Shown here piece by piece: positions 3,128 through 28,668 of a stretch of 28,668 bases of DNA; positions within the stretch are counted from its first letter, which is position 1; every line of letters begins with the position of its first letter. The stretch spans positions 1 through 28,668 of the IMG/VR virus record IMGVR_UViG_3300044591_001731; one strand, given 5' to 3'. The notes under the pieces are model-generated. The model was given only the letters and a program-made list of their open reading frames with translations, was not told where the DNA came from and ran no database searches. The position numbers were made by a program, and so were the translations under genes. Source of the DNA: a virus.

Positions 3128-3340
3128 ATGAGCAACAAAGAGCTTGGATTGGTTTTAATCTTTTCACCATTCGTTTTATTTATTCTTTTATTTTTAATTA
3201 CAGAATATATTGAGGGTTGGAGAAAAGCATTTTATGGATATAAACACTTTCAAGATAGTTTTGGTTTAATTGCTATGACAGTTACAACCATATTTATAAC
3301 TATGCTTTTTTCTGGATTATATTTACTTCTAAAACTCTAA
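3128..3340 (+). CDS. Small two-pass membrane protein, AT-rich
   Basis: This 70-residue protein has two hydrophobic segments (about residues 7-26, LVLIFSPFVLFILLFLI, and 46-68, LIAMTVTTIFITMLFSGLYLL) separated by a short loop. Its AT-rich DNA stands out from both flanking genes, as with 1891-2085, and suggests a laterally acquired unit. It begins MSNKE, similar to the MSNEP starts of the two DUF551 genes. The function is unknown. Confidence 0.65.
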   Translation: MSNKELGLVLIFSPFVLFILLFLITEYIEGWRKAFYGYKHFQDSFGLIAMTVTTIFITMLFSGLYLLLKL

Positions 3341-3359
3341 CCAATCTACTCACAAAACT

Positions 3360-4184
3360 ATGCCCAAAGAATCAAAATCCAACGAGCCCAAATCAGCCAA
3401 AATTAAATCCTCCGAAATCAAATCTTCTAATCGCAAAGCCTACGAAGACATCGTGGCATTGAACTACAGCGGAGCAAAAGAACTCCTAAAATCTCCTCTG
3501 CACTACCAGACTTGGCTCAAGAAGCCATCTCAGGACTCAAAGGCACTCAGACTCGGCAGAATGACGCACGAGGCTATTCTCCAGCCAGATGTGTTCAGTC
3601 GCTACGTTCCCCTTCCTGAAGTCGACCGTCGAACCAAGGAGGGCAAGGAGATGTATTGGGAGATTATGAATAACTTAAGTCCTGACGAAATCGCTGTGGA
3701 TAACGCAGAATACGACTTTGTGCTTAATGTGTCCGACAGCATCAAAATAGCATTAGAGCAAAAAGGAATCGTATTTGACTGCACTGAGCAAGTCGTGACG
3801 AACACCTACAACGGCGTTCCGCTTAAATGCAGCATCGACGCTATTGCTCAGGGAGTGATTTACGACATCAAAACCACCGATGACGCGAGTCCGGGTGCTT
3901 TCCTCAGAACTGTGCAACAATACCGCTATAACCTCCAGAGTCTGATGTATCGCCAGATTGCCAATTTGAACCGCTTTGTATTCATTGTGGTCGAGAAAGA
4001 ACCACCTCATGCGGTGTGCTTCTATGAGCTCGGTAACGAGATTATGCAGAGGGCTTTTCTGGATTTTGAGCGAGCGACGATGCTTTACAAGGAGTGCACC
4101 GAAACGAACTGCTGGAACGGCTATTCAACCGAAATACAAATGCTGGACATTCCTCAGAAATCTGGAATTATCAATTTCGCCTAA
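3360..4184 (+). CDS. PD-(D/E)XK exonuclease, DUF3799/RecE-like
   Basis: This 274-residue protein matches the phage RecE-like (DUF3799) nuclease layout. After a Lys/Ser-rich lead-in it has YSGAKELLKSPLHY (about 36-49), LGRMTHEAIL (65-74, with His70 and Glu71), the core CSIDA...IYDIKTT (157-173, with Asp160, Asp169 and Lys171) and a QQYRY element (186-190) of the QxxxY type. The family degrades one strand from double-strand ends to give single-stranded DNA, which the ERF protein encoded at 512 would anneal. The SSB-like gene follows after 16 bases. Confidence 0.87.
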   Translation: MPKESKSNEPKSAKIKSSEIKSSNRKAYEDIVALNYSGAKELLKSPLHYQTWLKKPSQDSKALRLGRMTHEAILQPDVFSRYVPLPEVDRRTKEGKEMYWEIMNNLSPDEIAVDNAEYDFVLNVSDSIKIALEQKGIVFDCTEQVVTNTYNGVPLKCSIDAIAQGVIYDIKTTDDASPGAFLRTVQQYRYNLQSLMYRQIANLNRFVFIVVEKEPPHAVCFYELGNEIMQRAFLDFERATMLYKECTETNCWNGYSTEIQMLDIPQKSGIINFA

Positions 4185-4713: not shown

Positions 4714-5319
4714 ATGGAAGACGGAATACAGAACTTCTGGCACATCATCCCGCAGCGAACGCTGGTGCTAATCTCCGGCTACGCTAGGGCTGGTAAGGAT
4801 ACACTCGGGGACGGCATCCTTGAGTGGTCAGAAAAGAACTCCTGCAAGATTAACTTCGCAGAAGCATTAAAAGACTCCGGGAATCTCTGGCTGGATTGCC
4901 TCGGACTGAAAGGCGACTTTCACGATGAGCAATTTAAGACCGCTAACAGGGACATTCTCGTGACGCTCGGTGAATTCGCTCGGAGCATCGACGCTGGAGT
5001 ATTTGCTCGAGAACTCGCCGATCAAGTCCTGCACAGCTACGACGACGACGGAATTCCGCACGAGACTGTCATTTGCACAGATTGGAGATATCTCAATGAA
5101 CTCACAACGTGCCAGCAATTCCTTATTCCTATGGGCTGGAAGATTAAAACGGTGTATGTAGAAACGACAGGACAGAAAGCAGCGAACGCAACTGAACTAA
5201 ACAGCATCAGTGAGATTAGGGGTTTAATTAACTTCGACCAAGAGTATTACTTCGCTGAAAATTGCAGAAACAAGATTCTCGCTGAGGGCAGAATGCTCGC
5301 TAAGCAGTGGATGCTGTAA
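4714..5319 (+). CDS. Deoxynucleoside monophosphate kinase-like P-loop protein
   Basis: This 201-residue protein has a P-loop of the dNMP kinase type, LISGYARAGKDT (about 19-30), followed by FAEALKDS (48-55), the pattern of phage dNMP kinases ('G..gsGKdT...AdplK'). A later ICTDWRYLNE segment (about 118-127) resembles the lid/substrate part 'i..DvRf.nE'. Such enzymes phosphorylate dNMPs with ATP to feed phage DNA synthesis. No other nucleotide metabolism gene is present, so it would work with the host pathway. Confidence 0.82.
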   Translation: MEDGIQNFWHIIPQRTLVLISGYARAGKDTLGDGILEWSEKNSCKINFAEALKDSGNLWLDCLGLKGDFHDEQFKTANRDILVTLGEFARSIDAGVFARELADQVLHSYDDDGIPHETVICTDWRYLNELTTCQQFLIPMGWKIKTVYVETTGQKAANATELNSISEIRGLINFDQEYYFAENCRNKILAEGRMLAKQWML

Positions 5320-6518: not shown

Positions 6519-6530
6519 CTCACGGAAGAA

Positions 6531-6562
6531 ATCCACAAATCCACAAATCCACAAATCCACAA
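6531..6562. repeat. Four tandem copies of ATCCACAA
   Basis: There are four perfect 8-bp units at 6531-6538, 6539-6546, 6547-6554 and 6555-6562, followed by AACAAAACAAAACCC, between the metallophosphoesterase stop and the ATG at 6593. It lies in the leader of the two-gene replication unit 6593-8225. It could be a protein-binding array, an unwinding element or an unstructured translation leader. Confidence 0.9.
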
Positions 6563-6592
6563 AACAAAACAAAACCCAACAAAATTCCCACA

Positions 6593-6910
6593 ATGAAAAA
6601 ACAGCAAATCAACGACCCTGCTTACTTAGCGATAATGCTCGCTGAGATTCACAAAAAAGCAGAGAAAGTGCCAGAGGGATATTATACATCGAAACAATGG
6701 TCTGAACGATGGAACGGCAGAGGAAAGCCAGATAAGATTCTAAAGATAGGAATACAGGCTGGCATCATCGAACGCAGAGATTTTAGAATAACCATAGGCG
6801 ACGGCAGAGTGCTTCCGATTGCTCACTATAAATTTCTCGGCGAGGAAAAGCAGAAGCAGAATTTTAAGAAATTTAATTCTAAGAAATCTAAGAAATCTAA
6901 TTCTAAATAA
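6593..6910 (+). CDS. Putative DNA-binding protein (winged-helix-like)
   Basis: This is a 105-residue protein. An open frame extends upstream to 6437, but that part lies inside the metallophosphoesterase gene and reads through the 8-bp repeats, so I chose ATG 6593. Residues 25-75 (VPEGYYTSKQWSERW, then ILKIGIQAGIIERRDFRI and VLPIAHYKF) have the form of a small helix-turn-helix with a wing. The Lys/Ser-rich tail (FNSKKSKKSNSK) comes from repeated AAGAAATCT-type DNA. The helicase gene starts 8 bases later, so a helicase loader or origin-binding role is plausible but unproven. Confidence 0.68.
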   Translation: MKKQQINDPAYLAIMLAEIHKKAEKVPEGYYTSKQWSERWNGRGKPDKILKIGIQAGIIERRDFRITIGDGRVLPIAHYKFLGEEKQKQNFKKFNSKKSKKSNSK

Positions 6911-6917
6911 TTAGACA

Positions 6918-8225
6918 ATGAATTCTATTCCTTGCTCAATCGAATCTGAGCAATACCTGCTCGGCGTTGTCATTAGGGACAACCTCGACCTCAACGAAAT
7001 CGGACTCAAGGCTCAGGACTTCTTTGAACCACGCCATCAGGATATCGCTCAAGCAGCGATTCTTTGTAAGCAGGACCTCATCGAAATTAACGAAATCAGC
7101 ATCGGCTCAGTGCTTTTATCGAAGGGACTTAATTACACCACTTACATCAACGAGTGCACGACGAACGTAGGATTCACTGCTCTGAACAAATTCTGGGCTC
7201 AGGAAATCAAACGCACTGCTAAACTCCGCCAGATTCAACTGCACGCTAAGAAGCTCCTCGACTACACAACCCAACCAGAATCCAACCCAGATGCTCTCCT
7301 CGATTATGCCGAGGGAACGTTTAAGTCTTTCAGCAGGGAGACGAAAACAGGACTCCAAGAGATGCAACTTGATGCTCTCAGCAGTTTTGACCGAACTAAC
7401 GACGAAGATGCAGTAATTGGCAAATACCGCTGGCTGTGCAAGGGTGGCTCATTGCTTCTCGTTTCGCAATCCGGTGTAGGCAAGTCGTCATTCACTATGC
7501 AATTTGTGATCACGCTTTGCACACAATACCAAAAAGGTTTCTTTGGCATCAAGGCAGGAAGACCCTTACGCGTAGTAATCCTTCAAGCAGAGAACGACCT
7601 CGGCGACATTGCTGAGCCATTTCAGGACATCCTCAAGGGCATGCAACTCAGCCAGACCGAAAATGAATTGCTATTCGAGAACCTACGAATCTTCCGAGAC
7701 ACTGCCTCCGTAGGACAGGAATTTCTTAAACGAATGAAGGAGCTCATCGTCCTGCACCGGGCTGATGTGTTCGTTGTTGATCCATTGCTATCCTTTGCTG
7801 GCATCGAAGTTTCCGACCAGAAGCAAATGACGGAATTCCTACGGCATGGCGTCGCACGAGTGCTCGAGGAAACAGGGGCGGTTCTAATCGCAGTGCACCA
7901 CACTACCAAGCCAAGGTCATCAAAAGACCGCGAAGGGCAAACAGACACTGATTTAGCCTACTCTGGTGCTGGAGCATCGGAACTCGTGAACTACGTGCGA
8001 GAAGTCGGGGTCCTCCAGCGAGCACAGGGTTCAGAACCGATATTCAAATTCTCTTTAACTAAACGCCGTAACCGAGCAGGGATGAAGAACATCGATGGCG
8101 ACTTCAGTCACGAAATCTACGTCCGCCACAGCCGAGAACAGAACACAGTGAAGTGGGAATATTCCCTCCCGCCGGACGACTTACGCGACAAGGAAACCGC
8201 AGCCAAAAACTTCCGAGGACGATAA
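6918..8225 (+). CDS. Replicative DNA helicase (DnaB-like N-terminus, RecA/RepA-type ATPase)
   Basis: This 435-residue protein has a DnaB-type N-terminal domain (about 5-85, SIESEQYLLGVVI ... DFFEPRHQDIAQA) and a RecA-fold ATPase. It shows Walker A SQSGVGKSS (183-191), Walker B VFVVD (284-288) and the sensor-like segment LIAVHHTTK (323-331). It is somewhat shorter than typical DnaB, and the ATPase reads more like the RepA/AAA_25 branch. It should unwind the fork; no primase or polymerase is encoded, so it probably recruits host DnaG and Pol III. It ends just before an iteron-like array (8273-8336). Confidence 0.85.
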   Translation: MNSIPCSIESEQYLLGVVIRDNLDLNEIGLKAQDFFEPRHQDIAQAAILCKQDLIEINEISIGSVLLSKGLNYTTYINECTTNVGFTALNKFWAQEIKRTAKLRQIQLHAKKLLDYTTQPESNPDALLDYAEGTFKSFSRETKTGLQEMQLDALSSFDRTNDEDAVIGKYRWLCKGGSLLLVSQSGVGKSSFTMQFVITLCTQYQKGFFGIKAGRPLRVVILQAENDLGDIAEPFQDILKGMQLSQTENELLFENLRIFRDTASVGQEFLKRMKELIVLHRADVFVVDPLLSFAGIEVSDQKQMTEFLRHGVARVLEETGAVLIAVHHTTKPRSSKDREGQTDTDLAYSGAGASELVNYVREVGVLQRAQGSEPIFKFSLTKRRNRAGMKNIDGDFSHEIYVRHSREQNTVKWEYSLPPDDLRDKETAAKNFRGR

Positions 8226-8272
8226 AACCCAAAAACCACGAATTATATGGCATTTATGCAATTTATACGTTC

Positions 8273-8336
8273 AGAAGTCTTAAACAGAAGTCTTAAACAG
8301 AAGTGTTACATAGAAGTGTTACATAGAAGCCTTCCT
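8273..8336. repeat. 13-bp iteron-like direct repeats (4 copies plus a partial)
   Basis: Copies are AGAAGTCTTAAAC at 8273-8285 and 8286-8298, AGAAGTGTTACAT at 8299-8311 and 8312-8324, and a partial AGAAGCCTTCCT at 8325-8336. The constant part is AGAAGT-TTA. The period of 13 is not a multiple of three, so it is not a protein repeat. Candidate binding sites for a replication initiator. Confidence 0.9.
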
Positions 8337-8346
8337 ATAACTACGT

Positions 8347-8364
8347 ATAGGGAAACTGCCCTAT
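8347..8364. other. Short perfect hairpin next to the iterons
   Basis: ATAGGG (8347-8352) and CCCTAT (8359-8364) are perfect inverted arms around the loop AAACTG. No T-tract follows, so it does not look like a terminator. It lies 10 bases after the iteron array. Confidence 0.65.
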
Positions 8365-8424
8365 GCTCGCTATACGCTCGCTGGGCGTTTCTCATAATAA
8401 TAAAAAAATAACAAAAGAACATTT

Positions 8425-8772
8425 ATGAACCTAAAGCAGAAATACTACCTATCCAATGTCCGCAGGACTCTCTGGAAGAATCACCCCGATCAGATGAAGA
8501 GAATGGCTCTTAGGGGTAGCATCAATAATCAAAAGAACCGAAGAGTGTTCATCGATAAACTCAGGAATTGGGCAGAGATGAATATCAAGAAGCCCATTAG
8601 TTACTCTGAGCTCTTAGCATTACTTAAAACTATTCCTGATTATAAAACCAGAGCAGAGAAACAAAAGAAATACAGCAGTCTGATAGCACTGATGAAGACT
8701 AAGGGTATCATTCGTTTCGATTGGGAACAAGAGGGATACGTGGTAATCGTGAAGGAATTACCTCGGTTTTAA
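8425..8772 (+). CDS. Hypothetical basic protein
   Basis: This 115-residue Lys/Arg-rich protein is mostly helical. The part about 55-110 (ISYSELLALLKTI ... LIALMKTKGIIRFDWEQEGYVVIV) could form a winged-helix unit with a beta-hairpin end. It is not recognised. As the first gene after the iteron region it could be the protein that binds those repeats; that is an inference from position and charge. Confidence 0.65.
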   Translation: MNLKQKYYLSNVRRTLWKNHPDQMKRMALRGSINNQKNRRVFIDKLRNWAEMNIKKPISYSELLALLKTIPDYKTRAEKQKKYSSLIALMKTKGIIRFDWEQEGYVVIVKELPRF

Positions 8773-8813: not shown

Positions 8814-9326
8814 GTGCAGAGGAAATCGTGCTATGACGTGCAAGCTCCTAAAGCAGACGCTCGGCGGTTTGATAAGTGGTTTTTCTCTCTGAGCAGGAAG
8901 GAGCAAGATAAGTTACGCGATCACGGTGTTTTACCTTACAGGGAAATGTGGCAGCCTAAGCACGTCTTTGAAGTGAAGGAGAACCACAAGGCTTGGGGAA
9001 CTACTGACACTACCGAAAGAATTGAAACAGAAGAATTCATCAGCAGGGAGCACGTGCTGAATTCATTGCGAGCATTCATGCAGGCACTAACGCAGACTGA
9101 TTCGTTCGTCATTCGTAGGCATATTGAATTTGTTAAGTGGGCTCTGGAGATGCCGAGCCGGTTACCTTCTCGCCAGATAGCATCGATGTATGGTATGAGT
9201 CATGAAGGTATTATGAAGCGAGCAAGATTCGTTCGCAGTCAGTTAAACGTGGCTGAACTTGTGACGCTGGATGAAGTGAAGGAATTTAGGAGTAAGGATA
9301 AGAAGTCGAAACGGAAATCCAAATAG
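8814..9326 (+). CDS. Sigma-factor-region-4-like HTH protein (possible late regulator)
   Basis: This 170-residue protein starts with GTG; an in-frame TAA stop lies at 8805-8807 and the next Met is residue 45, so GTG 8814 is favoured. Near the C-terminus (about 117-143) LPSRQIASMYGMSHEGIMKRA has the form of a helix-turn-helix like sigma region 4, followed by a very basic tail (KDKKSKRKSK). The N-terminal part (RRFDKWFFSLSRKEQDKL) is helical and basic. Located at the end of the early arc before the terminase operon, it could switch on late transcription. A terminase-related DNA-binding role is the alternative. Confidence 0.68.
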   Translation: MQRKSCYDVQAPKADARRFDKWFFSLSRKEQDKLRDHGVLPYREMWQPKHVFEVKENHKAWGTTDTTERIETEEFISREHVLNSLRAFMQALTQTDSFVIRRHIEFVKWALEMPSRLPSRQIASMYGMSHEGIMKRARFVRSQLNVAELVTLDEVKEFRSKDKKSKRKSK

Positions 9327-9335
9327 GGCAATAAT

Positions 9336-9860
9336 ATGGAAAAAGATAAAATAAAAAACATAAGCAAATCTTTAGCTTATTATTATAAAAACAGGGAAAG
9401 ATTATTGGAAGTTCTGAAAAAACGTGCAAAAGATAATTATTATAAGAACAAGAAAGCAAAATTAGAAAAAAATAAAGAATGGAGAGACACAAACAAAGAG
9501 TATTTCAAAAATTATAAATCTAATTTTAAACAGAGAAGTTATTTCAGTAATCGTTCTACAACAATTAGATACAGACACAAAGGTGGATTAGGAATGAGCC
9601 ATAAAGAACACGCTACTAAGTTATTCTGGATATGGATTAAGCAGAAAGGACGATGTGCATATACAGGAACAAAATTACAATTTGATAGCACAACGCATTT
9701 AGACCATATTATTCCTGTTTCTAAAGGCGGAACAAATCATCCAAGCAATTTACAATTTGTTTCAAATGTGGCTAATCAGGCTAAATCCAATCTTACGCAC
9801 GATGAATTCATTTTATTATGCAAAACCATATCTCAAAGGTTTGAATACCCCAATAGATAA
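9336..9860 (+). CDS. HNH endonuclease, AT-rich
   Basis: This 174-residue protein has a C-terminal HNH domain: GRCAYTG (about 106-111), THLDHIIPVSKGG (120-132, catalytic LDH with His124) and HPSNLQFVSNVANQAKS (135-151, with Asn138). Only one CxxC-like Cys is visible, so it is probably the type without a full zinc knuckle. The N-terminal 80 residues are Lys/Tyr/Asn-rich, as in many free-standing homing-type HNH proteins. The gene is much more AT-rich than its neighbours, pointing to insertion. HNH proteins beside terminase genes often assist packaging, so this one may be either a packaging helper or a selfish element. Confidence 0.87.
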   Translation: MEKDKIKNISKSLAYYYKNRERLLEVLKKRAKDNYYKNKKAKLEKNKEWRDTNKEYFKNYKSNFKQRSYFSNRSTTIRYRHKGGLGMSHKEHATKLFWIWIKQKGRCAYTGTKLQFDSTTHLDHIIPVSKGGTNHPSNLQFVSNVANQAKSNLTHDEFILLCKTISQRFEYPNR

Positions 9861-10108
9861 CTTTTACCCACCCACCCCTATCGTGGCGTGGCTGAGCACC
9901 GCCTAACTTTTTTACCTGTCTGACTCACAAAACCAAGGGGTTTACCCATCTGGCTGGCGATTTAAGACACTTTGACGCACCGACCCTTACCTACCCCTAC
10001 CTTTTGCATCAAAACGCCTTAGAAGCCAAAATTGAAAGAATTAGACGCTTGCTTGAAAATCGCCTAAAATTCGACATCTAAAAAACAGCCAAAGAAAAAC
10101 CAGCATCT
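9861..10108. promoter_or_regulatory. Non-coding region between early and late arcs; candidate late promoter and cos/pac site
   Basis: This is about 248 bases with no ATG-initiated gene. It contains C-rich runs (ACCCACCCACCCCTA), a bulged hairpin with T-tract, GGGGTTTACCC, and the motif TACCTACCCCTA (9988-9999) followed by ATCAAAACG (10008-10016), which recurs at 26927-26951. It lies just upstream of the small terminase gene, the usual place for cos or pac. A TTG-initiated reading frame ending at 10081 is considered but not called. Confidence 0.5.
9885..9913 (+). terminator. Possible terminator after the HNH gene
   Basis: GGCGTG (9885-9890) can pair with CACCGCC (9897-9903) with one bulged base around the loop GCTGAG; after TAAC comes a run of six T (9908-9913). 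It would end the early transcript 25 bases after the HNH stop. The bulge and the 4-base gap before the T-run make it weaker than the terminator at 16602. Confidence 0.45.
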
Positions 10109-10657
10109 ATGCCTAAATTAACCAACGGACAAATCGCATCTGCCCTCGGGGTGTCGGTTGCTCGGGTGTCAGCGTTACGCAAGGAAGGTATGCCGGACGA
10201 TTCGATGGAGTCAGTGCTCGCTTGGCGTCAGGCGAGAGAAGACGAACGCAGGCGAATTGCTCCAGAGGTGGTCGAGACGCTGGACGACGGAAGCATCGCC
10301 GAGAGAATTAACTCGCACAGGATTAAGGTGAATCTTGCTGGTCAGGTTTGGGAGCAGTCAATTCGTGACAGAGACCCGAATCAGGGTAAGTTTCAGACGG
10401 CTTACAATCAGTCACTCAAGACTCTGTTGGATCTCGAAGAGGAGCAGGAGCGACGAGCGGTGCAAGCAAGGCAATTCATCAAGGCTTCAGAATCCAGAGA
10501 AGCGATGACGCAGTTGATGTCAGAAATTTTGACTCGGCTTGATAAGCTCGGCCTCGACTGTGCCGAACAATGCAACCCAGAGAACCCAGCGAAGGCGGTT
10601 AAGGTGCTCGACGGCTGGGTGCGGAAGGTGCGAGCGGAGATGTCCCAGAGCGAATGA
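10109..10657 (+). CDS. terS: Terminase small subunit
   Basis: This 182-residue protein begins with a helix-turn-helix (about 4-27, LTNGQIASALGVSVARVSALRKEGMP) that would recognise the packaging site. A helical oligomerisation part follows (about 75-150). It sits immediately before, and overlaps by four bases (ATGA), a gpA-type large subunit, as in lambda-like packaging modules. Its role is to bind phage DNA and load the large subunit for cutting. Confidence 0.8.
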   Translation: MPKLTNGQIASALGVSVARVSALRKEGMPDDSMESVLAWRQAREDERRRIAPEVVETLDDGSIAERINSHRIKVNLAGQVWEQSIRDRDPNQGKFQTAYNQSLKTLLDLEEEQERRAVQARQFIKASESREAMTQLMSEILTRLDKLGLDCAEQCNPENPAKAVKVLDGWVRKVRAEMSQSE

Positions 10658-22114: not shown

Positions 22115-23116
22115 ATGCCTGATTCGATTCCTGAGAGCAGTCAGTTTGAACGCATGCCGCATTGTTTTGCTTGTTGGGGTAGGGCTGGGGATTGGTGGAT
22201 GGTGGATATAACTGAAGGAGCACCAGACGATTTCTATGAAAGATATGTCGTGGAATATCATCCGGGTTATAATAATTTCTATAAGGTGGATTTAATTAGT
22301 CAGCCTTATTACCCTCAATATAATTCTGAATTTTATTCACCTACTTATCCTTTGCCGGATGTTCCGAGTGACCTTGGAGACTATGGGCAAGAAGGTGGAT
22401 TATTTGGTGTCACAACCGGACCTTGGATTGTAAAATCTTATTCTTCAGACCCAGATTCTATTAAAACTTACGACGCTCGATTGGCTTCTGGTAAAATTTA
22501 CACCGACGCCGATGGTAACTACACAGGTGTTGATTTCAGTTTATGCGAGAATCTAAATAAAGTGAACCTGTGCCGAGGACCGCAACAAGCGACAGCGAAG
22601 TTTATCATCCAGAATCCTCAAGGTGAAACTCCTTCTGGAATAGAGGGAAATATTTGGTATGAATATGAGGACGGATTTATTTCAACAAGCAGCGAAGAAT
22701 TAGGTCACGGACTTATTTATTATTATTTTGTTAATGAAGCATACACAGGATTCAATGTTTATAATTTAACAGACGACACATCAGTTTATCCATTAGGTTG
22801 GTCTGCTCCATTGGGTTCTGCTTCATTTGTAGATTGCCACACAGCTGAATTTCCAAAGTCGCATTTAACTTATTCAATAAATGGTTGTGATTTTAACCCG
22901 ACTTTTACTTACTCAAAAACAGTTAATCACGGGCACGATTTAGTTAATCTTGTGCATACAGATTATATTTGCCCAACGGACAACTTTCCCGGATATGCTC
23001 CCGGCATTTACTATCCTGACGGTGGCGGTTACGGCGGTTTCGCAAATCGTTTTTGCTACGACCGCATCACGAACTTCGGTTTCGATATAACCCTTGCTGA
23101 CCAATTCAAGGTCTGA
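22115..23116 (+). CDS. Aromatic-rich tail structural protein (putative)
   Basis: This 333-residue protein is unusually rich in Tyr, Phe, Gly and Asp, with several Cys (HCFACW, LCENLNKVNLC, DYICPTDNF). The starting region FERMPHCFACWGRAGDWWMVDIT is aromatic. It is probably a beta-rich tail tip protein, but it matches no family I know. The gene start is ATG 22115 after GGGTTTAATTTCG. A C-rich 64-base spacer follows it. Confidence 0.6.
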   Translation: MPDSIPESSQFERMPHCFACWGRAGDWWMVDITEGAPDDFYERYVVEYHPGYNNFYKVDLISQPYYPQYNSEFYSPTYPLPDVPSDLGDYGQEGGLFGVTTGPWIVKSYSSDPDSIKTYDARLASGKIYTDADGNYTGVDFSLCENLNKVNLCRGPQQATAKFIIQNPQGETPSGIEGNIWYEYEDGFISTSSEELGHGLIYYYFVNEAYTGFNVYNLTDDTSVYPLGWSAPLGSASFVDCHTAEFPKSHLTYSINGCDFNPTFTYSKTVNHGHDLVNLVHTDYICPTDNFPGYAPGIYYPDGGGYGGFANRFCYDRITNFGFDITLADQFKV

Positions 23117-28450: not shown

Positions 28451-28668
28451 AATCTCTGCCTGCCGAAAACTCACTGCGCACCTGCAGGGGAATAAATGTG
28501 CCATCTGTGAAATCGACCTCAACTGCGTCGTTGCCTGTCTCGACCACGATCACCGCAGCGGACGCATCCGAGGAGTGCTGTGCAATAACTGCAACGGAAT
28601 CGAGGGTAAAATCTACAATCTCAGTAACCGCGGTAAGCGAACCGGAACGACTGAATCGTATCTCCGCA
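28398..28668 (+). CDS. Recombination endonuclease VII, N-terminal part (continues at 3-227)
   Basis: The gene begins at ATG 28398, inside the end of the hydrolase gene in another frame, and crosses the contig join to stop at 225-227 (133 residues). It shows KCAIC (zinc pair Cys34, Cys37), then CLDHDHRSGRIRGVLCNNCN, with the catalytic LDHDH (48-52) and the second zinc pair Cys62, Cys65 followed by Asn66. This is the His-Me finger endonuclease VII pattern. It cuts Holliday junctions, mismatches and branches in replicated DNA so that it can be packaged. Confidence 0.9.
   Translation, partial: MQTPENSPQPNHRLKQSEISACRKLTAHLQGNKCAICEIDLNCVVACLDHDHRSGRIRGVLCNNCNGIEGKIYNLSNRGKRTGTTESYLR
28573..28668. 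repeat. Terminal direct repeat, right copy
   Basis: These bases equal positions 1-96. Removing one copy gives a 28,572-bp circle in which the endonuclease VII frame is continuous (28575 continues as position 3). Confidence 0.93.

Follow-up and report, generated by a model that had tools for sequence, protein, structure and literature searches.

The IMG/VR record IMGVR_UViG_3300044591_001731 is a virus DNA of 28,668 bp, which was studied at full length and is referred to here as the window. Its bp 1-96 are identical to bp 28573-28668, and a reading frame resembling HNH/endonuclease VII crosses the join of the record ends. Thus, the DNA is either a 28,572-bp circle or a circularly permuted genome, and the record is a complete circular phage map of 28,572 bp. 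The ends of one relative, G001, overlap by 127 bp, and the contigs of relatives begin at differing genes. The gene content is that of a tailed phage, with an Erf recombinase, an exonuclease, SSB, a DnaB-like helicase, an HNH endonuclease, terminase and structural genes, and all predicted genes of the window are on the + strand. For the terminase, the lowest E-value among the named phages listed is that of Verrucomicrobia phage P8625, a match that does not establish the host. In addition, two neighbouring genes (1691-1894 and 2102-2467) share a domain (EWQPIETAPKDGT-like, PHROG 924) and likely arose by duplication.

The region considered here lies between the helicase gene and a small gene for a basic protein, where an iteron-like array beside the helicase had been proposed as a replication origin. 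Its features are as follows.

6918..8225, + strand: DnaB-like replicative helicase gene (Pfam DnaB, 2e-8, N-terminal domain; AAA_25, 4e-18)
8226..8424, + strand: intergenic stretch and proposed origin, with the helicase gene before it and the small basic gene after it (cumulative skew lowest at 8,487; layout kept in relatives carrying the small gene)
8272..8336, no strand assigned: 13-bp direct repeats, four copies and a partial one, proposed iterons (TRF score 75; lag-13 self-identity 0.87)
8334..8351, no strand assigned: hairpin 1, CCTATA-ACTACG-TATAGG (counterpart directly after the array position in other lineages)
8352..8391, no strand assigned: hairpin 2, GAAAC.GCCC ... GGGC.GTTTC, holding GCTCGCT repeats (arms vary by lineage, complementarity kept)
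8386..8424, no strand assigned: stretch of 80-85% AT (may serve for unwinding, as an A-rich leader to the 8425 gene, or both)
8425..8772, + strand: gene for a small basic protein of 115 aa, proposed cognate origin-binding protein (AlphaFold2; co-exchange with the array)

The array is composed of two units of CAGAAGTCTTAAA, followed by CAGAAGTGTTACA, TAGAAGTGTTACA and the partial unit TAGAAGCCTTCCT. It is found by TRF with a period of 13, 4.8 copies and 89% matches, and its lag-13 self-identity is reached by none of 500 shuffles. The original prediction of four 13-bp repeats and a partial one, placed after the replicative helicase gene and before the small basic gene, is thus confirmed, except that the array begins at 8272 and not one base later, at 8273. 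Tandem repeats are not rare in the window genome, which holds 11 of them with a TRF score of at least 45. In G004 and G006 (61-63% GC), as in G013, the homologous array is the sole TRF match at that score; consequently, the array is not background. The GCTCGCT repeats start at 8365 and 8376, and the A+T-rich flank is present as described, although the stretch beside the array is not A+T-rich in GC-rich relatives. A perfect hairpin had also been placed at 8347-8364 (ATAGGG-AAACTG-CCCTAT). It is present, but as an alternative pairing; the pairing that has counterparts in relatives is that of hairpins 1 and 2. No sigma-70-like promoter, terminator or DnaA box was found when 8226-8424 was scanned.

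The helicase has relatives with 53-100% identity. Down to 53%, the same layout is kept: about three repeats of 12-13 bp, hairpin 1, hairpin 2 and the small basic gene, with 157-259 bp between the helicase and small genes in relatives that carry the small gene and have sufficient reach. The repeats are thus present at the same place in close and distant relatives, rather than missing from close ones. Clear arrays are seen in five lineages, with a period of 12, but 13 in the window. Their units are CAGAAGTCTTAAA in the window, GGAGAATGCTTC in L005, GTGAAATCCTTA in L052, TGACAATCCTTC in L056 (TGACAAACCTTA in L058) and CTCAAGGTCCGA in L015. A period of 12 is weak in L023/L067 and L022, and the self-identity test of the intergenic region gave no significant repeats in L010, L012 and L033. 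One Chloroflexota contig (L075), whose helicase is 45% identical, was set aside, as the small gene is not recognisable there, a clear array is missing downstream and the skew minimum lies elsewhere. A second repeat array (ACTAAGACTCACTTGG...) at L005 4131-4190, which separates the small gene of G001 from the gene that follows, is absent from the window.

GC skew and the start of replication

The cumulative GC skew of the circle, proposed earlier as a check, has its minimum at 8,487 and its maximum at 22,739, so that the arc between them (14,252 bp) is close to half the circle (14,286 bp). The amplitude of the skew was unmatched in 2,000 permutations of 100-bp blocks, and 500-bp blocks gave p = 0.0005. 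Skew at third codon positions also differs between the halves of the window (+0.063 vs -0.16, p = 0.002), the best split being at 7,900-8,300. As practically all genes lie on one strand, the orientation of transcription cannot cause the switch.

A similar contrast is observed in G001 (+0.078 vs -0.141, p = 0.0028), where the best split (3,300-3,700) contains the intergenic region at 3,419-3,618. The raw skew minima of G001, G002, G004 and G006 lie some 20-80 bp into the small gene, and the minimum coincides with the proposed origin in G000, G001 (raw), G002, G004 and G006. Other results speak against this: in G001 the linearly detrended minimum is at 5,061 and the raw one at 3,654; in G004, which is GC-rich, the third-codon-position contrast is weak (p = 0.07); and two partial contigs (G012 and G013) have their minimum within the helicase gene, about 1 kb further upstream. 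In general, the candidate origin beside the helicase gene is supported, as the minimum is near the array and not far from the expected 8.3 kb, and the array is kept at the same place in relatives. Tandem direct repeats, by which iteron origins are recognised, are present there as 4.8 × 13 bp in the window. A start of replication at this place is, as judged from skew and conservation, probable.

Exchange of the array with the 8425 gene

The DNA of the window is mostly more than 90% identical to that of G001 and G002 on both sides of the locus, but only 41-54% identical over 8101-8700. This stretch runs from the helicase tail through the intergenic region into the 8425 gene, most of which it covers; the C-terminal tail of the helicase is within the exchanged segment, as DNA identity to relatives falls from 8101 onward. 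A second, milder dip (67-83%, against about 93% around it) is seen between the same genomes at 7351-7800, in the helicase ATPase domain. The HNH gene (9301-9900) is a separate difference between the window and G001/G002; the endonuclease gene at 9336-9860 occurs in the window and G002, is absent at that place in G001, and is likely a mobile homing-type gene.

Beyond these genomes, L010 and L056 have helicases that are 0.85 identical and small proteins that are 0.29 identical, and for L022 and L067 the values are 0.92 and 0.27. The identity of the intergenic region has a partial correlation of 0.78 with that of the small protein (permutation p < 0.0002) and of 0.06 with that of the helicase. 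By these comparisons, the array and hairpins change in step with the 8425 protein rather than with the helicase, and are swapped along with its gene. Such a pattern would be that of a binding protein and its own site, and an initiator or a repressor would be equally expected to show it. Most likely, the 12-13-bp direct repeats are binding sites for the 8425 protein.

The earlier analysis had named the basic proteins encoded at 6593 and 8425 as possible new initiators. Of the two, only the 8425 protein is exchanged with the array, and it is therefore preferred; the 6593 protein is nearly unchanged between genomes whose arrays differ (about 96% identical between the window and G001), which makes it an unlikely initiator. 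In addition, the structural model of the 6593 protein is moderate (pLDDT 73) and another gene takes its place in L010; this gene, at L010 4624-4944 and upstream of the helicase, is apparently unrelated and HTH-like. A/C-rich, G-poor repeat leaders of variable copy number also precede small genes at 6529-6584 and at L005 3577-3618 (AAATCCAC × 4.4; AGATACA × 5). These are possibly unstructured leaders in a host where translation does not depend on Shine-Dalgarno sites.

The AlphaFold2 model of the 8425 protein (mean pLDDT 85.4) has two N-terminal helices and, in its C-terminal half, three helices and two strands, which are predicted to form a winged helix. This domain assignment comes from the model and from weak matches in the PDB (Z of 6.2 or less), many of them to winged helices (MCM8, ORC, cullin). 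By Foldseek, three unnamed proteins from uncultured phages are alike in fold (probability 1.0, E 0.008-0.03). Lambda O and plasmid Rep proteins were not among the matches listed by Foldseek and VIA-align, which is weak evidence either way. The family has 18 members, which are 20-36% identical to the window copy; against Pfam and PHROGs they gave no initiator match and no convincing family, in line with the earlier remark that no known initiator family is visible, and remote homology is possible. Family members had no match in 50,697 phage records, nor had the window helicase at 1e-5, and the matches of the L025 helicase in these records are distant DnaB-like helicases only. PHROGs scans of the other small genes of the phage revealed no primase, polymerase or initiator, and the genes scanned did not include an HUH Rep. 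It is likely, given the co-exchange, that the 8425 protein acts as the initiator or helicase recruiter of an origin at 8226-8424.

Other readings of the repeats and hairpins

The main rival to an origin is an operator, in which the 8425 protein would be a transcription regulator bound upstream of its own gene, swapped as in lambda-like immunity regions, with the true origin nearby. A protein with a predicted winged-helix fold is encoded directly downstream of the repeats, and a repressor that is swapped along with its operators would give the same pattern of co-exchange. However, no sigma-70-like promoter was found in the region, a scan that does not cover hosts with other promoters, and the GC-skew minimum, the conserved DNA hairpins and the linkage to the helicase are left unexplained. 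For these reasons an operator in place of an origin seems unlikely. Nevertheless, iteron origins often double as operators, so the two readings are compatible and the regulatory one could hold alongside the origin.

Terminase-binding sites typically contain repeats, and the terminase genes start at 10109, only 1.7 kb downstream of 8226-8424. The region might consequently be a packaging (pac/cos) site whose repeats are bound by the small terminase subunit. This is very improbable, as the TerS proteins of the window and G001/G002 have 97-98% identity despite completely different arrays, and the array tracks the 8425 protein instead. Moreover, contigs share no common end there, and the two-armed GC skew is not expected of a packaging site.

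The hairpins bear on whether the region acts as RNA, either as a structured leader controlling 8425 translation or as a small RNA. The arms differ between lineages, for instance CTTACC/GGTAAG, CCTTATC/GATAAGG and CCTATA/TATAGG in hairpin 1 and GAAAC/GTTTC, AGAATC/GATTCT, GGTTC/GAACC, CAAA/TTTG and AAAGGC/GCCTTT in hairpin 2, and the loops show no conserved sequence. The folding z-score against dinucleotide shuffles, added up across nine lineages, is -6.2 for the + strand and -10.8 for the - strand; L052 and L033 have weak single-sequence z-scores and a predicted + strand fold that departs from the two-hairpin pattern. The recurrence of stem-loops in all lineages and the probable transcription of the region along with its neighbours would suit an RNA. 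By contrast, G-U pairs make up 4% (+) and 2% (-) of pairs, against 13% and 11% in shuffles, a depletion reached by none of 200 shuffles. RNA helices tolerate G-U pairs, and thus their depletion on both strands points to selection on DNA pairing. Judged from folding energies, G-U depletion and the arms listed above, the hairpins look like DNA rather than RNA structures. Rfam gave no match in the window at the gathering threshold and an RNA would not explain the skew minimum, so there is little chance that this reading is right. Finally, the repeats can hardly be part of a short protein-coding gene with four-residue repeats (DNPS or QGPT in relatives, for instance), as open frames over the array in several lineages and a 12-bp period equal to four codons (translated by eye) might suggest, because the window has a period of 13 and differs by a 1-nt indel from L003 despite 100% identical helicase and small proteins (by eye), a stop lies within the L005 hairpin and the frame is not common to the lineages (by eye).

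A proposed mode of initiation and its relation to known origins

Taken together, the place of lowest skew, the layout kept among relatives, hairpins of DNA type and the co-exchange of site and protein argue for an origin. We consider it probable (roughly 70%) that 8226-8424 serves a dsDNA tailed phage of ~28.6 kb with a circular map as an iteron-type origin of two-way replication, with the 8425 product binding the repeats and loading the helicase. In the proposed mechanism, the small 8425 protein, with its predicted winged helix, would assemble on the 12-13-bp repeat array and open the adjoining DNA. It would then recruit the phage DnaB-like helicase, perhaps via the variable C-terminal tail of the latter. 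The two adjacent hairpins, once the strands are open or supercoiled, may be the loading place for helicase or primase, and the forks would go both ways and meet about 14.3 kb away. Of these steps, repeat binding by the protein, recruitment of the helicase and the task of the hairpins are inferred.

When the same layout was sought in the openly accessible literature, only general analogues were found. Iteron units of lambda-like origins are about 18-20 bp, whereas those of this phage group are 12-13 bp. In lambda the iterons are inside the O gene, while here they lie between genes, 3′ of the helicase gene and 5′ of the candidate initiator. Furthermore, the 8425 protein has no match to lambda O-type families, and the two conserved DNA hairpins are an addition. 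There are also likenesses: in lambda-like origins, tandem initiator-binding repeats adjoin A+T-rich DNA (PMC7466680), which lies near the array in the window but not in GC-rich relatives, a helicase function is encoded next door, and the replication module is exchangeable as a block, as in a lambda/P22 hybrid with P22 genes 18-12 (PMC3349717).

Iteron plasmids (RepE, TrfA; PMC4980987) similarly carry direct repeats close to the gene of a DNA-binding protein with winged helices, a fold that is predicted for the 8425 protein. However, RepE has two winged helices and the 8425 model one, and in the phage the intergenic region has no DnaA boxes, the repeats are short and the helicase is phage-encoded. 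The unwinding regions of plasmids and oriC also hold 13-mers (PMC4980987), so the window array could partly be an unwinding region. The RepA_N origin of the PLE phage satellite (PMC7145576) likewise belongs to an element of the phage world that has an initiator of its own and needs intergenic iterons to replicate, but RepA_N initiators are another protein family and PLE needs a helper phage. In the rolling-circle origins of circular ssDNA viruses (PMC10653810), iterons also adjoin a stem-loop; here, by contrast, there is no HUH Rep among the scanned genes, the loops vary in sequence and the skew agrees with theta replication in both directions. The proposed origin is set apart from known iteron origins by its gene order, the length of its repeats, the family of its putative initiator and its two extra hairpins.

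A broader and more tentative proposal, to which we give somewhat less than even odds, is that the 8425 family represents new, very small phage initiators with a single winged helix and fast-evolving 12-13-bp iterons, which load a DnaB-like helicase at two conserved DNA hairpins and form a swappable cassette of origin-initiator compatibility. If the origin reading is true, an origin and an initiator would be assigned to an uncultivated phage group that lacks a recognisable initiator. There would also be a natural series of at least three swaps of site plus protein in which the joint change of initiator and origin specificity could be studied. The combination of a skew minimum, a tandem array and a co-exchanged small gene could serve as a recipe to locate origins in other phages without known initiators. 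In addition, the hairpins, whose shape but not sequence is kept and in which G-U pairs are almost absent, suggest that DNA secondary structure plays a part at the origin of a dsDNA phage.
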